Assembly: GCA_002722095.1 (NCBI GenBank)
Contig: PBKG01000021.1
Location: forward strand, 1-25,109
DNA from: Rhodospirillaceae bacterium
GTDB lineage: Bacteria; Pseudomonadota; Alphaproteobacteria; UBA8366
Reading direction: 5' to 3'
DNA: 25,109 bases
Position numbers and translations under genes: made by a program
Part shown: one piece after another, positions 14,401-25,109 of the stretch
Layout of the letters: each line of letters starts with the position of its first letter
Position numbering within the stretch: position 1 is the stretch's first letter
The notes under the pieces: generated by a model
Database searches by the model: none
What the model saw: only the letters and a program-made list of their open reading frames with translations
What the model was told of the DNA's origin: nothing

Positions 14401-15609
14401 CTAGCCTAGCCACTCCCGCTTCGCTTCGGCAAATTGGCCGCGCAAAAGCGCGCTTCTGATTTCCGCCATAAGCCCGACCATGAAGGCGATGTTGTGTTGC
14501 GTCAGCAATTGTAATCCGAGAATTTCATCCGCTTTGATCAAGTGATGAATGTAGCCTCGTGAAAAGTTTTCACAGGCATAGCAGCCGCACTTGTCGTCCA
14601 AAGGTTTTCCGTCCTCGCGGAAACGGGCGTTGCGAAGATTTATACGGAAGTCCTTGGCGTTCTTTTTAAGTGCCCAACCATGGCGGGCGATGCGGGTTGG
14701 CGACACGCAATCAAAGGTATCGACGCCCATTGCTACGCCTTCCCAGATGTCGTGGATGCCGCCGATGCCGAGCAAATGGACCGGCTTTTCCTGCGCGGTT
14801 TCGGCAAGCGGTGCCATGGCGAACTCGACAATGTCGTACATGGCGTCCTTGTGATCACCGAGGCATCCACCGACCGCATGGCCGAAAAACGGTAACGAGG
14901 CGATAAATTCGGCCCCTTCGCGACGCAGGTCCTCGTAGATGCCGCCTTGAATCACGCCGTAAAGCCCTTGCGTCCCGTCATGATGACGGGCGAATTCGGC
15001 AAGGCTGCGCTCGGCCCATTTATGCGTGAGCTTGAGCGAATTTTCCGTATAGGATCGCTCCACATGCACCGGCGTACATTCGTCTAATACCACAGCCAGA
15101 TCGGGCCGCAGTTGACGTTGAATACGGATCGCGGATTCCGGCGTCAATTTGTGTTTGGTGCCGTCGCGTGGCGAGCGAAATACCGCCCCCTCTTCCGACA
15201 GATCGAGCAACAGGGGATTTCGTTTACCATCACGGCTCCCCTTAATCTCGGAGCTTTCGGTGCCCTGACCGAGACTGAAGATCTGGAACCCGCCACTATC
15301 GGTCAGCATCGGGCCGTCCCAGCCCATAAATTTGTGCAACCCTCCGAGCTTCTCGACCACGTCGGGGCCGGGCTGAATTAACAAGTGGTAGGTGTTGGCA
15401 AGAACCATTTCCACATTGGCCGCTCGGAGGTCGCGGGGACTGGCACCTCTGATCGCCGCTTTGGTCGCGCAAAAAATAAACGCCGGGGTCATCAATTCCC
15501 CGTGCGGAGTACTCAAACGTCCGAGCCGGGCACGGCTCGCCGCATCGCGCTCCAAAATTTCGAAGCCGAAGCCGGGATACTCGAGCTTATCTGGGACGGA
15601 TGTGCTCAT
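14401..15609 (-). CDS. tgt: tRNA-guanine transglycosylase (queuine/preQ1 tRNA-ribosyltransferase)
   Basis: Tgt exchanges guanine-34 of His, Asp, Asn and Tyr tRNAs for preQ1, the first tRNA-bound step of queuosine synthesis. Numbering from ATG 15609 (402 residues): MLTDSGGFQIFSLG carries D104, GVIQGGIYEDLR is the substrate loop, and DTFDCVSPTRIAR carries the likely nucleophile D300. The zinc site is CGCYAC followed by the His of the IHHLI segment. A TTG at 15621 would add MSPV, but it lies inside the T-rich tail of the rpmB terminator, so ATG 15609 is preferred. Neither start has a recognisable Shine-Dalgarno. The gene follows rpmB on the same strand and precedes phrB. No other queuosine genes are in the window. 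Confidence 0.95.
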   Translation of the reverse strand: MSTSVPDKLEYPGFGFEILERDAASRARLGRLSTPHGELMTPAFIFCATKAAIRGASPRDLRAANVEMVLANTYHLLIQPGPDVVEKLGGLHKFMGWDGPMLTDSGGFQIFSLGQGTESSEIKGSRDGKRNPLLLDLSEEGAVFRSPRDGTKHKLTPESAIRIQRQLRPDLAVVLDECTPVHVERSYTENSLKLTHKWAERSLAEFARHHDGTQGLYGVIQGGIYEDLRREGAEFIASLPFFGHAVGGCLGDHKDAMYDIVEFAMAPLAETAQEKPVHLLGIGGIHDIWEGVAMGVDTFDCVSPTRIARHGWALKKNAKDFRINLRNARFREDGKPLDDKCGCYACENFSRGYIHHLIKADEILGLQLLTQHNIAFMVGLMAEIRSALLRGQFAEAKREWLG

Positions 15610-15621
15610 AACAGGAGACAA

Positions 15622-19348: not shown

Positions 19349-22300
19349 CTATTTGCCCGACACGATATCGCGACCCAGCGCGCGACAGAGCAACAGGTAA
19401 AGCTTGCCCACATCAGCGGTCATGAAGGTGGAATGGAGCAGATGTTCCGGATCCACCTCTTCGGCTTCGCGCAGTAGAGTTTCGAAATGATCGAAATAGC
19501 GCATCACGTAGCGGCGCATTTCTTCTTCGCGCTGAACCTTCTGGGCAATCAACGATGCGGTGGCGGACGGTTTGTTGCCGAGCAGCGCGCGGGTGAAAAT
19601 ACCCCGATCGCCTTTGACGTAGCGTTTCCAGTCCGCGTCCGGCACTTCGGTCCGCAAGAGACGGGTCAGGTCGACTGCCGTCGAATGCAGATCTTCGATG
19701 ATATAGCGTGCGGTTTTGAGGAACACATTGCGGCGGCCGGAGAGATCCATCTCCTTCAACCGCTCCGCCTGATCGGCCGCATCGGCGGCGGCCTGCGCCA
19801 GCACTGCGGCATGCTGATCGAAGCTGGTGCTGGCTTCGCTAGTCTTCGCCATCACTTCGTCGGTCGTGTTGAGAAGATTTGCCCGATGATGCTCGACCTT
19901 TTCGGTCAGGCTGTCGATCTGGCTGCGCGCATCGCCGGTCGCCTGAACCAGCGTATGAGTTTGACGGCCAAGAATTTCGCCAACCTCGCGAACCTGCCCG
20001 CTCGCCTCTTCGCCGGCCTGACCAAGATCACGTGCCTGCTGACGAAGCCGCTCGGTAAGCGCGCCCATGCGTGAGGAAAGCTGATCGGTCGACTCATGTA
20101 AATTCGCGGTCTGCTGCGTGAAGGCGTCTCCAATCAACCGCATGCGCTCGGTCGCCTCTTGTGCGACGCGCATGACTTGCTCCGATTCCTTTTGCAGCGC
20201 TTCGTTATTATCGTTGATCTGCATGCCAGCTTGCAGCGAAGCCGAGGTCAGGCGTTCTGCCTGGGCATTGAACCGTTCGCCGATTTCGTTCATCAGACGT
20301 AGCCCTTCGCCGAGGGCGTGATTCATCGTCGTGGTTTCCTTGTCGAAATTCTGTCCTGCTTCGCCCAACCGCGCGGCGACAGTTCCCGCCGCCTCGAGGA
20401 GCTGCGCCACTTGCTGCTGTAGAACGGATGAAATTTCTCCCGCCTGTTCGGAGGCTTTGGTCGATGACTCCTTCAGCGCTTCCGAATGAGCCTGGATCTG
20501 CGTGTCGATCTGTTGCGAACGTTTCTGCAGGAAAGTGGCAAGCTCGCCCAAATTTTTGCTGTCTTCTGCCAGTGCCGCCTTGACCTGGCCCGCACGCTCG
20601 CCAACCTGGGTCGCCGCCGCACTGAGCTCGGTCGTATTTTCGCTAAGCGCCTCACGAATCTCTTGCACGCGGCCGGCAACGTGCTCCGACGCTTCGTTCA
20701 TTTCCTGGCTGCGCTGGCGCATCAATTCGGCGATAGACCCCGCTTGCGCCGACGATCGGTCTGCCGCGTCGCGCAGCGTTGCAGCCTGTTGTGTAAGCGT
20801 TGCCGCCATGGTCTGAGCTTCGGCAGCGGTTGGGCCCAGGGCATCGCTTATTTCGGTGACGCCATCCCTCACCGCAACGGTAATCTCGGAGGCCTTGGAC
20901 TGTAACAGCGCCTCGATATCGCGGGCCTGGGAAGCCGCGTGGTCGGAGGCGGCGCGCAAATCCTGCGCTTGCCGATCCAGAGCCGCACGCAATGCGTCCG
21001 CGCGGTCGGTAGCAAGGTCGGTCGATTGACCCAGCGACTGGGCCTGGTCCTGAAACATTTGCCCCATTGTTTGGATACGTTCGGCGGTTTCGTCGGAGGC
21101 TTTGGTGAGCTGTTCCGATTGCTGCCGCACCGCTGCCTGAACGAGCCTGGTCTGCTCCGCAACGTGCTCCGCCGTCGCCGACAAATCGCCAGCTTGCGCT
21201 TTTAGCGCCGTAATCATGTTTTCGGTCTCGACGCCGGAACGCTCGGTAACGTTCGCAAGGTTCTGCGACTGATCGTTCATCACGAATGTGAGGCGGCCGA
21301 TCTGTTCCTTTGCCTGCTCCACCGCATGGCCGATCTGGGACGCATTATGCGTGATTGCCTCACGTAAGCCCTGGCTTAGGGCGGAGGCCTGTTCGTCGAC
21401 CTGATTCTTGAGCTCATCCATGCGATGTTCGGCCGCGGTCAGAATCCGGTCCACGCTATTAATTTGCTTCTCTAGCGTACCTTCGAGGTGACTGGTCACC
21501 CCGGCAGTTTGCCGTGACAAGCCTTCGGCCATGCGCTCGATACGCTCGCCGGTGCGGTCGGTCATCTGACCGACAGCGTCGGATTGTTCGTCGAGGGCGA
21601 CCTGCAGCTTTTCGGACATTTGTCCGATTTCGTCCCGAAGTTCACTGGCAACCGTCGTCGCTTTGGCGTTGACCCGTTCAGCGGCGGATTGCAATCCTTC
21701 AGCACTGGCGGCCAAATGTTCTTCGGCGGCACTCGCTTGATCCTGAGCGTGACGGCTCGCTTCGGTCAAATTTTCCGAATAGCGCTCGAACATTTCGCCA
21801 ATGGTCTTCGCCTGATCCGCGGCTTTGTCCGACACGCTGGTCAAGTCGGAAGCCTGTAAGCGGAGTGCCGCGTTGATGTGATCCGAATGCTCGATCGCCT
21901 GTTGGGTCACCCGGCCAAGCGCTTCGGCCTGTCCGGTTACGGTCGATTCAATCGCCTGGCGTTGTTCGTCGACCTTTTCGACGACATTCTGAAGAGTCTT
22001 AACGTCCGCAAGCAACCGATCGCGCATGCGATGCGCCTCGGCCGCCGCCTTGTCACCCACTTCGCCAAGATCGGCTGTCTGCGATTCCACCGCCGAGACC
22101 AACTCCGACAAGTGCGTCGTTGCCTGTTCGCTGACCGCCGCAAGCTCTTCGGTCTGTTTTTTCAGAAGATCGGAAACCGTTGCCACCCGGTTTTCATATT
22201 CTTCGGCGGGATAAGCCAGAAGGTCGAGGTGACGCCGCAACATTTCCGTATGGAACCGCACATCGTGCGTCCGGCGGAAATAAGCGATCGCCGCCCAAAG

Positions 22301-22558
22301 CATCGCTAATGGCAATGCAAACCCGGCCACCAGCGCACCTGTCTCATGCGGCAGGAATTGCGCCGTAAAATCCCAGCCGAGATTTCGGTGAATGTATGCA
22401 AGACACGCAATCGTCCACAGCACCGAAAGTGCCGCGCCCCCCTGCAGCAACCACTTTGCCTGGCGCTCTGCACGTTGGGCGGTTTGACGCAAACTCGCAA
22501 GGCTCGGCCCGGATTCCTCCTGCCCTGCCCGGCGCAGCTCTGTCACATTGTCGGCCAT
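19349..22558 (-). CDS. TipN-like polar coiled-coil membrane protein with 25-residue repeats
   Basis: This 1069-residue protein has two hydrophobic helices (about 36-58 and 74-93), then a continuous helical rod (139-919), then a compact C-terminal domain (about 940-1069) with RRNVFLKTARYIIEDLHS, KGDRGIFTRALLG and DVGKLYLLLCRALGRDI. This layout matches my recollection of Caulobacter TipN, the new-pole landmark that recruits TipF; the C-terminal domain supports this more than the low-complexity rod. The rod is built from 25-residue units: 8 in 139-338, 6 in 409-558 and 13 in 595-919, joined by 70- and 36-residue linkers. It is rich in Ala, Gln, Glu and Ser. ATG 22558 is used; an in-frame GTG at 22615 would add 19 residues. 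Neither has a clear Shine-Dalgarno. It should sit in the inner membrane with the rod in the cytoplasm. Orthology is inferred. Confidence 0.8.
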   Translation of the reverse strand: MADNVTELRRAGQEESGPSLASLRQTAQRAERQAKWLLQGGAALSVLWTIACLAYIHRNLGWDFTAQFLPHETGALVAGFALPLAMLWAAIAYFRRTHDVRFHTEMLRRHLDLLAYPAEEYENRVATVSDLLKKQTEELAAVSEQATTHLSELVSAVESQTADLGEVGDKAAAEAHRMRDRLLADVKTLQNVVEKVDEQRQAIESTVTGQAEALGRVTQQAIEHSDHINAALRLQASDLTSVSDKAADQAKTIGEMFERYSENLTEASRHAQDQASAAEEHLAASAEGLQSAAERVNAKATTVASELRDEIGQMSEKLQVALDEQSDAVGQMTDRTGERIERMAEGLSRQTAGVTSHLEGTLEKQINSVDRILTAAEHRMDELKNQVDEQASALSQGLREAITHNASQIGHAVEQAKEQIGRLTFVMNDQSQNLANVTERSGVETENMITALKAQAGDLSATAEHVAEQTRLVQAAVRQQSEQLTKASDETAERIQTMGQMFQDQAQSLGQSTDLATDRADALRAALDRQAQDLRAASDHAASQARDIEALLQSKASEITVAVRDGVTEISDALGPTAAEAQTMAATLTQQAATLRDAADRSSAQAGSIAELMRQRSQEMNEASEHVAGRVQEIREALSENTTELSAAATQVGERAGQVKAALAEDSKNLGELATFLQKRSQQIDTQIQAHSEALKESSTKASEQAGEISSVLQQQVAQLLEAAGTVAARLGEAGQNFDKETTTMNHALGEGLRLMNEIGERFNAQAERLTSASLQAGMQINDNNEALQKESEQVMRVAQEATERMRLIGDAFTQQTANLHESTDQLSSRMGALTERLRQQARDLGQAGEEASGQVREVGEILGRQTHTLVQATGDARSQIDSLTEKVEHHRANLLNTTDEVMAKTSEASTSFDQHAAVLAQAAADAADQAERLKEMDLSGRRNVFLKTARYIIEDLHSTAVDLTRLLRTEVPDADWKRYVKGDRGIFTRALLGNKPSATASLIAQKVQREEEMRRYVMRYFDHFETLLREAEEVDPEHLLHSTFMTADVGKLYLLLCRALGRDIVSGK
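19802..22144 (-). repeat. Tandem 75-bp / 25-residue coiled-coil repeats
   Basis: Inside the TipN-like gene, 27 complete 25-residue units can be laid out without gaps in three blocks. Typical units begin LTSVSDKAADQAK, LTKASDETAER, LRAASDHAASQAR and LGQAGEEASGQV. Leu or Met is favoured at position 1, small residues at 4-5, Asp or Glu at 6, Ala or Val at 8, hydrophobics at 12, 15 and 19, and Gln near 22. Twenty-five residues equals two heptads plus one hendecad. The DNA units have diverged, so the period is conserved at protein level. Confidence 0.8.
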
Positions 22559-22707
22559 GCCCCAGAGTCTACGCCAAACCTGCTCCACGGAAAAGCGGCA
22601 CGTTGAATTTTTCACGCTTTCGTAAGGAGTTGGTGCGAATTCGAGACGATGTCGCGGTGCAGCGAAAATAGCTTGCGATTGGCACTTGAAAACGGTACTA
22701 AATCAAG

Positions 22708-22780: not shown

Positions 22781-23245
22781 ATGATCAAACTTAGCCGACT
22801 GACCGACTATGGCGTTGTGGTGATGGCGCAGATCGATCGAAGCGGTAGTGACGTTACCACCGCGCACGATCTCGCTCGCGCTACGGGCCTGCCTTCGCCG
22901 ACGGTCAGCAAGCTGTTGAAAAAGCTATCTAAAACAAACTTACTAATGTCCCATCGTGGGGTCCATGGGGGCTACTCCTTAAGCCGTCCCCTCGAAAAGA
23001 TCACCGTCGCCGAATTGATCGAGGCCTTGGATGGGCCGGTAGCGTTGACCGCATGCGTCGGCGATACAGAAGACAAGTGTAAGGTCGAATCGCTTTGTCC
23101 AGTACGTGGCGGCTGGGACCGGCTTAACCGGGCGGTTCGTGCGGCCTTGGAGGAAATGTCACTCGCAGATTTGTGCATGCCGATTGAATTTCCAGAAATC
23201 ACGGCACCCAAACACTCAAACAGCCTTCGACGGGAGCATGTCTGA
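22781..23245 (+). CDS. sufR: Rrf2-family SUF system Fe-S cluster assembly regulator
   Basis: This 154-residue IscR-like repressor is expected to sense Fe-S cluster status and control the suf operon. The N-terminal winged helix-turn-helix covers about residues 1-75, with [20 protein letters not shown] as recognition region and the wing [10 protein letters not shown]. Three cysteines suited to a cluster follow: C92, C100 and C106 (C-x7-C-x5-C, versus C-x5-C-x5-C in E. coli IscR). Its TGA overlaps the sufB ATG by one base (TGATG), so the two are translationally coupled. The upstream 165 bp, shared with the TipN-like gene, holds overlapping dyads that may be its operator. The symbol sufR is used loosely: this is an Rrf2 protein, unrelated to cyanobacterial SufR. 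Confidence 0.9.
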
Positions 23246-24699
23246 TGTCTGCCACCGTTGAAACCGTCGAACAGGTCAAGGCGCTTGGTGACAAGTACGA
23301 ATTCGGCTTTGTCACCGATATCGACCTGGAAAAAGCCCCTAAGGGGCTGAGCGAAGAGATCGTCCGATTTATTTCGGCGAAAAAGAACGAGCCGGAATGG
23401 TTGCTCGAGTGGCGTTTGAAGGCCTATGCCCACTGGCTGACCATGCCTGAACCCGAATGGGCCAAGGTCGAGTTTCCACCGATCGACTATCAGGATGCCT
23501 ATTACTATGCCGCGCCAAAATCCGACGCGGACAAACCGAAAAGCCTCGACGAGGTCGACCCGAAACTGCTCGAAACCTACGAAAAGCTCGGCATTCCCTT
23601 AAAAGAACAAGAAATGCTGGCGGGCGTTGCCGTCGACGCGGTGTTCGATAGCGTATCCGTCGCCACCACCTACAAGGCGAAGCTCGAAGAAAAGGGCATC
23701 ATTTTCTGTTCTATCTCGGAAGCGGTGCAAGAACATCCGGAATTGGTGCAAAAGTATCTCGGTTCGGTCGTTCCCTACGGCGATAACAAGCACGCCTGCT
23801 TGAACTCGGCGGTATTCACCGATGGTTCCTTCGTTTACATCCCCAAAGGCATCAAATGCCCCATGGAACTGTCGACCTATTTCCGTATCAACGCGGAAAA
23901 TACCGGCCAGTTCGAACGCACCTTGATCATCGCCGATGAAGGCTCCTATGTGAGCTATCTCGAAGGCTGCACCGCGCCGATGCGAGACGAGAACCAGCTG
24001 CACGCCGCCGTGGTCGAGCTGGTCGCGATGGACGATGCCGAGATCAAGTATTCGACCGTGCAGAATTGGTACCCCGGCAACGCCGATGGCGTTGGCGGGA
24101 TCTACAATTTCGTGACCAAGCGCGGGCTGTGCCAGGGCGCACGGTCCAAGATCAGCTGGACGCAGGTCGAGACCGGCTCTGCGGTGACGTGGAAATACCC
24201 GAGCTGCGTGCTCAATGGCGAGAACAGCGTGGGCGAGTTCTACTCGGTCGCGGTCACCAACAACCACCAGCAGGCCGATACCGGGACCAAGATGATCCAC
24301 AACGGCAAGGGCAGCCGCTCGACGATCATCTCCAAGGGGATCAGCGCCGGGCAGAGCAGCAACACCTATCGCGGGCTGGTCCGCGTGGCCGCCAATGCCG
24401 AGGGCGTGCGCAACCGCACGGAATGCGATTCGCTGCTGCTGGGCGACAAGTGCGGCGCGCACACTGTGCCCTATATCGAGGTGAAGAACCCCACCGCGCA
24501 GATCGAGCGTGAGGCGACAACCAGCAAGATTTCCGACGACCAGCTGTTCTACGCGCAGCAGCGCGGGCTGGACGAGGAAGCGGCGATCGCGCTGATCGTC
24601 AACGGCTTCGCCAAGGAAGTGCTGAAAGAGCTGCCGATGGAATTCGCGGTCGAGGCGCAGAAGCTGCTGGCGATTTCGCTCGAGGGGAGTGTGGGGTGA
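23245..24699 (+). CDS. sufB: Fe-S cluster assembly scaffold SufB
   Basis: SufB is the core of the SufBC2D scaffold, where sulfide and iron are assembled into clusters in the cytoplasm. The 484-residue chain is full length, with a beta-helix core containing [32 protein letters not shown] and the [20 protein letters not shown] segment. C394 corresponds to the conserved sulfur-accepting Cys (E. coli C405). GGGAG lies 8 nt before ATG 23245. The gene is compositionally two-part. Before about 23962, Glu is 22 GAA to 5 GAG and CTG is 6 of 20 Leu codons. After about 23989, Glu is 4 GAA to 14 GAG and CTG is 14 of 16 Leu codons, with no TTG or TTA. The protein is continuous, so the junction is either an assembly chimera or a recombination point. 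Confidence 0.96.
23962..23991. other. Composition junction inside sufB
   Basis: The last GAA of the A/T-tolerant half is at 23962-23964 and the first GAG of the GC-rich half at 23989-23991. The stretch encodes a highly conserved SufB segment ([10 protein letters not shown]), where two different genomes could share identical sequence. Downstream genes carry the GC-rich style. Confidence 0.6.
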
Positions 24700-24959
24700 G
24701 CCTCGGCGATTTTCTTGGCTATGCCTTTGCGGCGCTCATGCTGGTCGGATGGTTATATCTGACTGTCGAGTATGTAAGGGCGGCGATCCGGGGTCGCTTC
24801 TCGTTCTGGCGGCGCAGGGCTGGCAAAAAGACATGGCCTCCTGTCCGCGCCGAACGCCCACTTGCGTTCTGGGTGATTTGGGCGCTGATGGCTGGGCCAA
24901 TCCTTATGCTGACGGCGCTTGTGCTGAGCGGCGTAATTATGGTGGCGTTTCAAGCATGA
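24696..24959 (+). CDS. Small two-helix membrane protein in suf operon
   Basis: This 87-residue protein has two hydrophobic segments, about 7-29 ([19 protein letters not shown]) and 58-84 ([20 protein letters not shown]). They are separated by a short, strongly basic loop ([14 protein letters not shown]), which by the positive-inside rule should face the cytoplasm. It starts at GTG 24696, overlapping the sufB stop by 4 bp (GTGA). It ends by overlapping the next gene's ATG (ATGA). This tight coupling supports a real gene despite its small size. I recognise no family. It lies wholly on the GC-rich side of the sufB junction, so it may belong to a different organism from the bulk of the window. 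Confidence 0.7.
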
Positions 24960-25109
24960 CTGACCGCAAAACTCTCCAGCTCCGCGATCCGTCCGAGAGC
25001 GATTCCGAGACCCCCGCCGTCAAGCGCAAGGGCCGCGGGTGGGAGATCTCGGAGAAGCGGCTCGACGCGTTGCATGATCGTGCGCGCGAGATGCGTCGCC
25101 ATGCGAGCC
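24956..25109 (+). CDS. Partial N-terminus of suf-operon gene, possibly a DUF559 endonuclease-like protein
   Basis: Only the first 51 residues are inside the window. The ATG overlaps the preceding stop (ATGA), so it is co-translated with the membrane protein. The start is polar, with LQLRDPSESDSETPAVKRKG followed by WEISEKRLDALHDRAREMRR, an amphipathic basic helix. In sphingomonad suf operons a DUF559-type endonuclease-like gene often lies between sufB and sufC, and its N-terminus commonly contains a similar RLDxLHDRAR-like helix. That is a recollection of context rather than a domain visible here, because the catalytic part would lie beyond the edge. Confidence 0.6.
   Translation, partial: MTDRKTLQLRDPSESDSETPAVKRKGRGWEISEKRLDALHDRAREMRRHAS

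Follow-up and report, generated by a model that had tools for sequence, protein, structure and literature searches.

The window analysed here is a whole contig of 25,109 bp, and its sufB gene lies close to the right end. The gene occupies positions 23245-24699 on the plus strand, as an open reading frame (ORF) encoding a SufB protein of 484 amino acids. According to Pfam, the protein contains both the SufBD core (PF01458, E 1.6e-77) and the SufB N-terminal domain (PF19295, E 4.9e-12). Directly upstream, at 22781..23245 on the plus strand, is a gene for an Rrf2-family regulator (PF02082, E 1.2e-30) with a GC3 of 0.61 and the codon usage of the left arm. Downstream follow a small ORF at 24696..24959 (plus strand), named membrane-protein-like by eye, and the 5' end of a DUF559 gene at 24956..25109 (plus strand), which is cut by the contig end.

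Two further genes of the left arm deserve mention. The product of 14401-15621 is presumably a queuine tRNA-ribosyltransferase-like (Tgt-like) protein, judging by its sequence. The ORF at 19349-22615 encodes 1088 amino acids, has weak apolipoprotein-type matches below the Pfam cut-offs, and is probably a long helical or coiled-coil protein.

A codon-usage switch within sufB

Codon usage changes abruptly within sufB, and this change is a real property of the sequence. The original prediction had counted glutamate codons GAA:GAG as 22:5 before the switch and 4:14 after it. These figures are reproduced with a cut at 23989; a cut at 23962 gives 21:5 and 5:14, a trivial departure. The leucine counts hold as well: CTG makes up 6 of 20 codons before 23989 and 14 of 16 after it, while TTG and TTA fall from 6 to 0, vanishing as had been stated. 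Fisher's p between the two halves of the gene is 1.4e-4 for glutamate and 7.6e-4 for leucine.

The best change point for synonymous codons lies at 23986-23989, with a log-likelihood gain of 46.6. A gain of this size was reached in 0 of 300 synonymous shuffles (mean 26.9, maximum 41.5). Across the switch, GC3 rises from 0.68 to 0.89. In the left arm it averages 0.669 and peaks at 0.754 (3276 sliding stretches of 100-236 codons from 18 ORFs). Since the left arm never exceeds that peak, the jump marks the right half of sufB as foreign to the rest of the contig. The switch falls in a conserved motif of 26 residues, as predicted; the motif is identical in five of the seven SufB proteins compared and has one change in the other two.

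Relatives of the two halves

The original prediction had proposed that SufB residues 1-239 and 249-484 be searched separately and placed in separate trees. In the searches, the two halves have different nearest relatives. The best match to the N-terminal half (residues 1-239) is P0003, with 92% identity; the C half of P0003 is only 78% identical. The relatives of this half are SufB proteins of uncultured Rhodospirillales-like alphaproteobacteria, whose C halves reach about 78%. The C-terminal half (residues 249-484) is 99% identical to Citromicrobium SufB such as P0122, whose N half reaches 69%. On the DNA, the N-terminal half of the left parent, an uncultured Rhodospirillales-like alphaproteobacterium, covers 23245..23958 on the plus strand (about 69% protein identity to Citromicrobium), and the C-terminal half of the right parent, of the Citromicrobium lineage, covers 23985..24699 on the same strand (98-99%). 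The family and order names given to the Citromicrobium and Rhodospirillales-type relatives are assumed, in part from record titles, source names and tree labels.

The protein searches covered a non-redundant set clustered at 90%, with the best 120 of about 8000 scored matches taken per search and 263 proteins overall. When all 263 were scanned for a fit to two parents, the window protein showed the largest two-parent gain (0.089), with a breakpoint at residues 232-259. Non-overlapping parts of the contig are best matched by different species, as expected of an interspecies assembly chimera.

In the same clustered set from a single database, the full-length hybrid (P0001) is represented by one sequence on one contig, the window itself. 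The next full-length match has 86% identity (best 120 of 7999 scored). No second copy is among the matches listed in the full-length, N-half and C-half searches (263 proteins), so that in the one database searched no independent record repeats the hybrid. Recurrence in a sister genome or a second assembly, which would be expected of a real replacement, was not seen among the 263 proteins, nor was a genome of the left parent's own species found. Nor was a native full-length SufB of the left population found in these searches, the top N-half match being the one at 92%.

Trees of the "quick" kind were built from 67 rows, with 62 distinct sequences for the N half and 59 for the C half. They are incompatible, each half being rejected from the parent of the other. 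Forcing the N half of the window into a group with 12 Citromicrobium-type rows costs 167 log units and is rejected (p-AU 1e-4). The C-half tree by itself has the window in one clade with these 12 rows (support 96), and holding it with P0003, P0005 and P0012 is rejected at a cost of 66 log units (p-AU 0.001). The groups for these two tests were picked after the first trees had been seen. With broader groups, the N half of the window is not rejected from all 15 Rhodospirillales-type rows (AU p 0.307), and its placement with all 32 sphingomonad-type rows does not reach rejection (AU p 0.086). In the C half, placement with the same 15 Rhodospirillales-type rows is rejected (p 9e-5).

The join and its two arms

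The join can be confined to 23959..23984 on the plus strand. The last mismatch between the window and the genome G380 is at 23958, and the A at 23985 is common to the window and G380 alone, being found in 1 of 43 related loci. To the left of the join, 33 of 147 bases differ from G380 (23812-23958); from 23959 to 24060, all 102 bases are identical. A relative on the left side, L124, matches the window exactly over 23956-23984. With L124 as a proxy for the left parent, 26 bp are shared with G380, and it is plausible that the two parents had an exact stretch of about 26 bases in common at 23959-23984.

Exact sharing between the two groups was measured in 396 pairs of 18 left and 22 right loci, with the left loci L117 and L128 excluded as truncated. 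The longest exact run has a median of 29 bp and a maximum of 46, and in 155 pairs it starts in the bin 23950-23999, followed by 56 pairs in the bin 24250-24299. The loci L001 and L111 are the same sequence; if the duplicate is kept, the counts are 19 left loci, 418 pairs and 172 in the join bin. The join bin is the commonest site of the longest shared run and therefore the likeliest place for a k-mer graph to tangle two genomes. A 151-bp query across the junction found at best 92% identity in 289 genomes of the class, of which 154 had a match. Three loci fetched with this query were tried as the right parent and ruled out, their C parts being only 73-78% identical to the window.

A search of 397 sampled genomes of the Aurantiacibacter luteus family yielded matches in 389. 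Of these, only the match in G380 covers the entire right arm, with 98% identity at its locus L089. G380 is called Citromicrobium-like because of the protein matches. From 24235 to 25109, a stretch covering the 3' end of sufB and both ORFs downstream of it, 873 of 875 bases are identical, and the DUF559 fragment has zero differences from L089. Just right of the join, at 24061-24234, identity is 152 of 174 (22 differences), so the right arm derives either from a related strain or from a mosaic of strains. In this block, L092 of the genome G253 has an identity of 0.96 to the window at 24061-24149 and 0.92 at 24150-24239. The sufB of L089 itself has an in-frame stop where the window has a glutamine (24061), at the opening of the 174-bp divergent block between near-identical flanks. 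Errors in sequencing or assembly, a mosaic of strains or a broken gene may account for the stop and the block.

The right flank had been predicted to resemble a sphingomonad suf operon, and the match to L089 and the gene order bear this out. In G380 the gene order, with frames read by eye, begins with an Rrf2-like frame and sufB; next come a small membrane-type ORF and a DUF559 gene, and a sufC-like frame lies farther downstream. The small ORF of the window is the one directly after sufB in L089, and the L089 copy has no Pfam family. The complete L089 counterpart of the last gene belongs to DUF559 (PF04480, E 1e-10 in Pfam). After the join, the contig continues for about 1.1 kb and then stops.

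The left arm has no such close match. In contrast with the 873 of 875 bases shared with G380 on the right, a search of 61 genomes from the Aquibaculum order, 60 of which matched, gave at best 80% identity to left-parent DNA. The Rrf2 gene belongs to the left parent by its codon usage, and L001 likewise has an Rrf2 gene directly upstream of sufB. At a threshold of 1e-150, the Tgt-like protein matches 14 of 289 sampled genomes of the class with 57-60% identity, and no Aquibaculum genome is among the 14. The Tgt-like protein does not pin the left parent, which is therefore placed by its SufB half only, in a Rhodospirillales-like lineage. From these identities it would seem to be a poorly sampled lineage.

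Origin of the hybrid gene

The contig is very probably an interspecies assembly chimera, with a false join at a k-mer shared within sufB. In this model, about 23.96 kb would derive from a single uncultured Rhodospirillales-like alphaproteobacterium, and the final 1.15 kb from a Citromicrobium-like erythrobacterium that presumably co-occurred in the same sample. Starting at 23959, in the region coding for the motif, the two sufB genes would have been identical over roughly 26 bases or more. An assembler using k-mers no longer than this stretch could have reached it through the left genome and continued into the Citromicrobium-like one, so that the join would have arisen in assembly rather than in the cell. 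Because the join lies at homologous positions, the frame survives and the product looks like one intact SufB of 484 amino acids.

This is also the reading that the original prediction preferred, and it is supported by the differing relatives, the incompatible trees and a join where exact sharing is most often longest. It is favoured because two organisms contribute, the join is conserved, the right arm is near-identical to a known genome, the contig ends early and the hybrid is a single record. Points against it are the two broader N-half tree tests (AU p 0.086 and 0.307), the block at 24061-24234, which keeps the right arm from being an uninterrupted copy of the G380 strain, and the fact that the searches gave no SufB of the left parent with its native C half. 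The finding is most likely a data error and not new biology. Nodes common to several species are a documented cause of chimeric contigs in metagenome assembly; they are described in a metagenome-assembler paper that also gives counts of chimeric contigs for its test assemblies (PMC8171044). Judged by titles and the beginnings of abstracts, the literature on sufB chimeras or recombination yielded no such case.

Another explanation is real intragenic recombination: after a recent uptake of Citromicrobium-like DNA by the left bacterium, the 3' half of its sufB would have been replaced, together with at least the next 0.4 kb of the suf operon. An intact frame and a join in highly conserved DNA would follow equally, since homologous recombination also favours a conserved stretch, and a donor near-identical to G380 would be expected of a very recent event. 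The partners are strongly diverged, however: the DNA of the window is 65% identical to G380 in the N half and 73-74% identical to the left relatives L109-L111 in the C half. Moreover, the contig stops inside the putative donor segment, which puts the far end of the replacement out of view, and no second hybrid copy is among the matches listed (best 120 of about 8000 per search, 263 proteins). Recombination also gains from the existence of other mosaic-looking SufB proteins in the database, although those with a listed contig are single records on short contigs and fit an artefact at least as well. On balance, recombination is improbable. The specific case of a living Rhodospirillales-like bacterium with a functional hybrid SufB, born of very recent between-order recombination with Citromicrobium, would be quite improbable on this evidence.

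A laboratory chimera would give the same sequence outcome, by template switching at the homologous stretch during an amplification step such as MDA or library PCR, followed by faithful assembly. Chimeric reads can be numerous after whole-genome amplification (PMC6777429, citing Lasken and Stockwell). Such molecules would have to be abundant enough to assemble, and nothing in the sequence prefers template switching to a graph error; this origin is highly improbable. A native codon switch, in which the two halves of sufB normally differ in this lineage, for example through selection on the conserved core domain, would agree with the slightly higher GC3 and GAG content of the C half in many relatives. 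The difference in GC3 between halves is 0.204 in the window, compared with -0.058 to 0.082 in 43 related loci (42 distinct); the comparison covers relatives with DNA sequence, P0003 and the other nearest left relatives being represented by proteins only. The original prediction had held that the same codon pattern in the sufB of relatives would make the switch native, and the largest difference in these loci is 0.082. Together with the different relatives of the protein halves in the trees, the codon usage of these loci makes native heterogeneity so improbable that it is rejected.

The mosaic-looking records come from the 20 best rows of the two-parent scan; further rows, such as P0039 and P0252, have closer parents. 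Two parents fit better than one in P0002 (breakpoint 337), P0189 (174), P0218 (179), P0149 (113) and P0180 (120). Their parents are of Rhodospirillales type and sphingomonad type, and the fits are partial, with a composite identity of 0.84-0.94. Four of the five (P0189, P0218, P0149 and P0180) are represented by a single sequence on a single contig of 2.4-4.7 kb, and no contig is listed for P0002. Together, these records fit recurrent assembly errors in conserved parts of sufB, though repeated recombination would fit them too. If the living hybrid were real, P0002, P0149, P0180, P0189 and P0218 would suggest that conserved sufB stretches are natural recombination hotspots between alphaproteobacterial orders. 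In a record of another kind, P0132 on a 10,475-bp contig, an N-terminal part of aminotransferase type (PF00155) is joined directly to the C-terminal part of a SufB of erythrobacterial type, and this record looks like another assembly chimera.

An assembly chimera of the type proposed for the window passes ordinary checks, since it is homologous, in frame and intact in both domains. Left uncorrected, it yields a hybrid protein record, a false signal of horizontal transfer and a contaminated 3' end in any bin that holds the contig. We recommend splitting the contig at about 23959.

Each arm of the window can be compared with a known suf operon. With the Citromicrobium-type operon of G380 (L089), the window shares the C half of sufB, the membrane-type ORF and the start of the DUF559 gene. 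G380 differs in having its own N half, the divergent block at 24061-24234 and the in-frame stop at the counterpart of 24061. In the Rhodospirillales-type operons of Aquibaculum arenosum (L001) and a Kiloniellaceae MAG (L003), SufB has 484 or 483 amino acids, and in L001 the Rrf2 gene lies upstream as in the window; in both, however, the ORF after sufB is of the ABC-ATPase type and has the size of sufC, and it stands in place of the membrane ORF and the DUF559 gene. The join itself resembles the chimeric de Bruijn nodes described for metagenome assembly (PMC8171044), in which a stretch is common to two species, the flanks diverge and the contig crosses from one to the other. For the window, such a node is proposed from the contig sequence.
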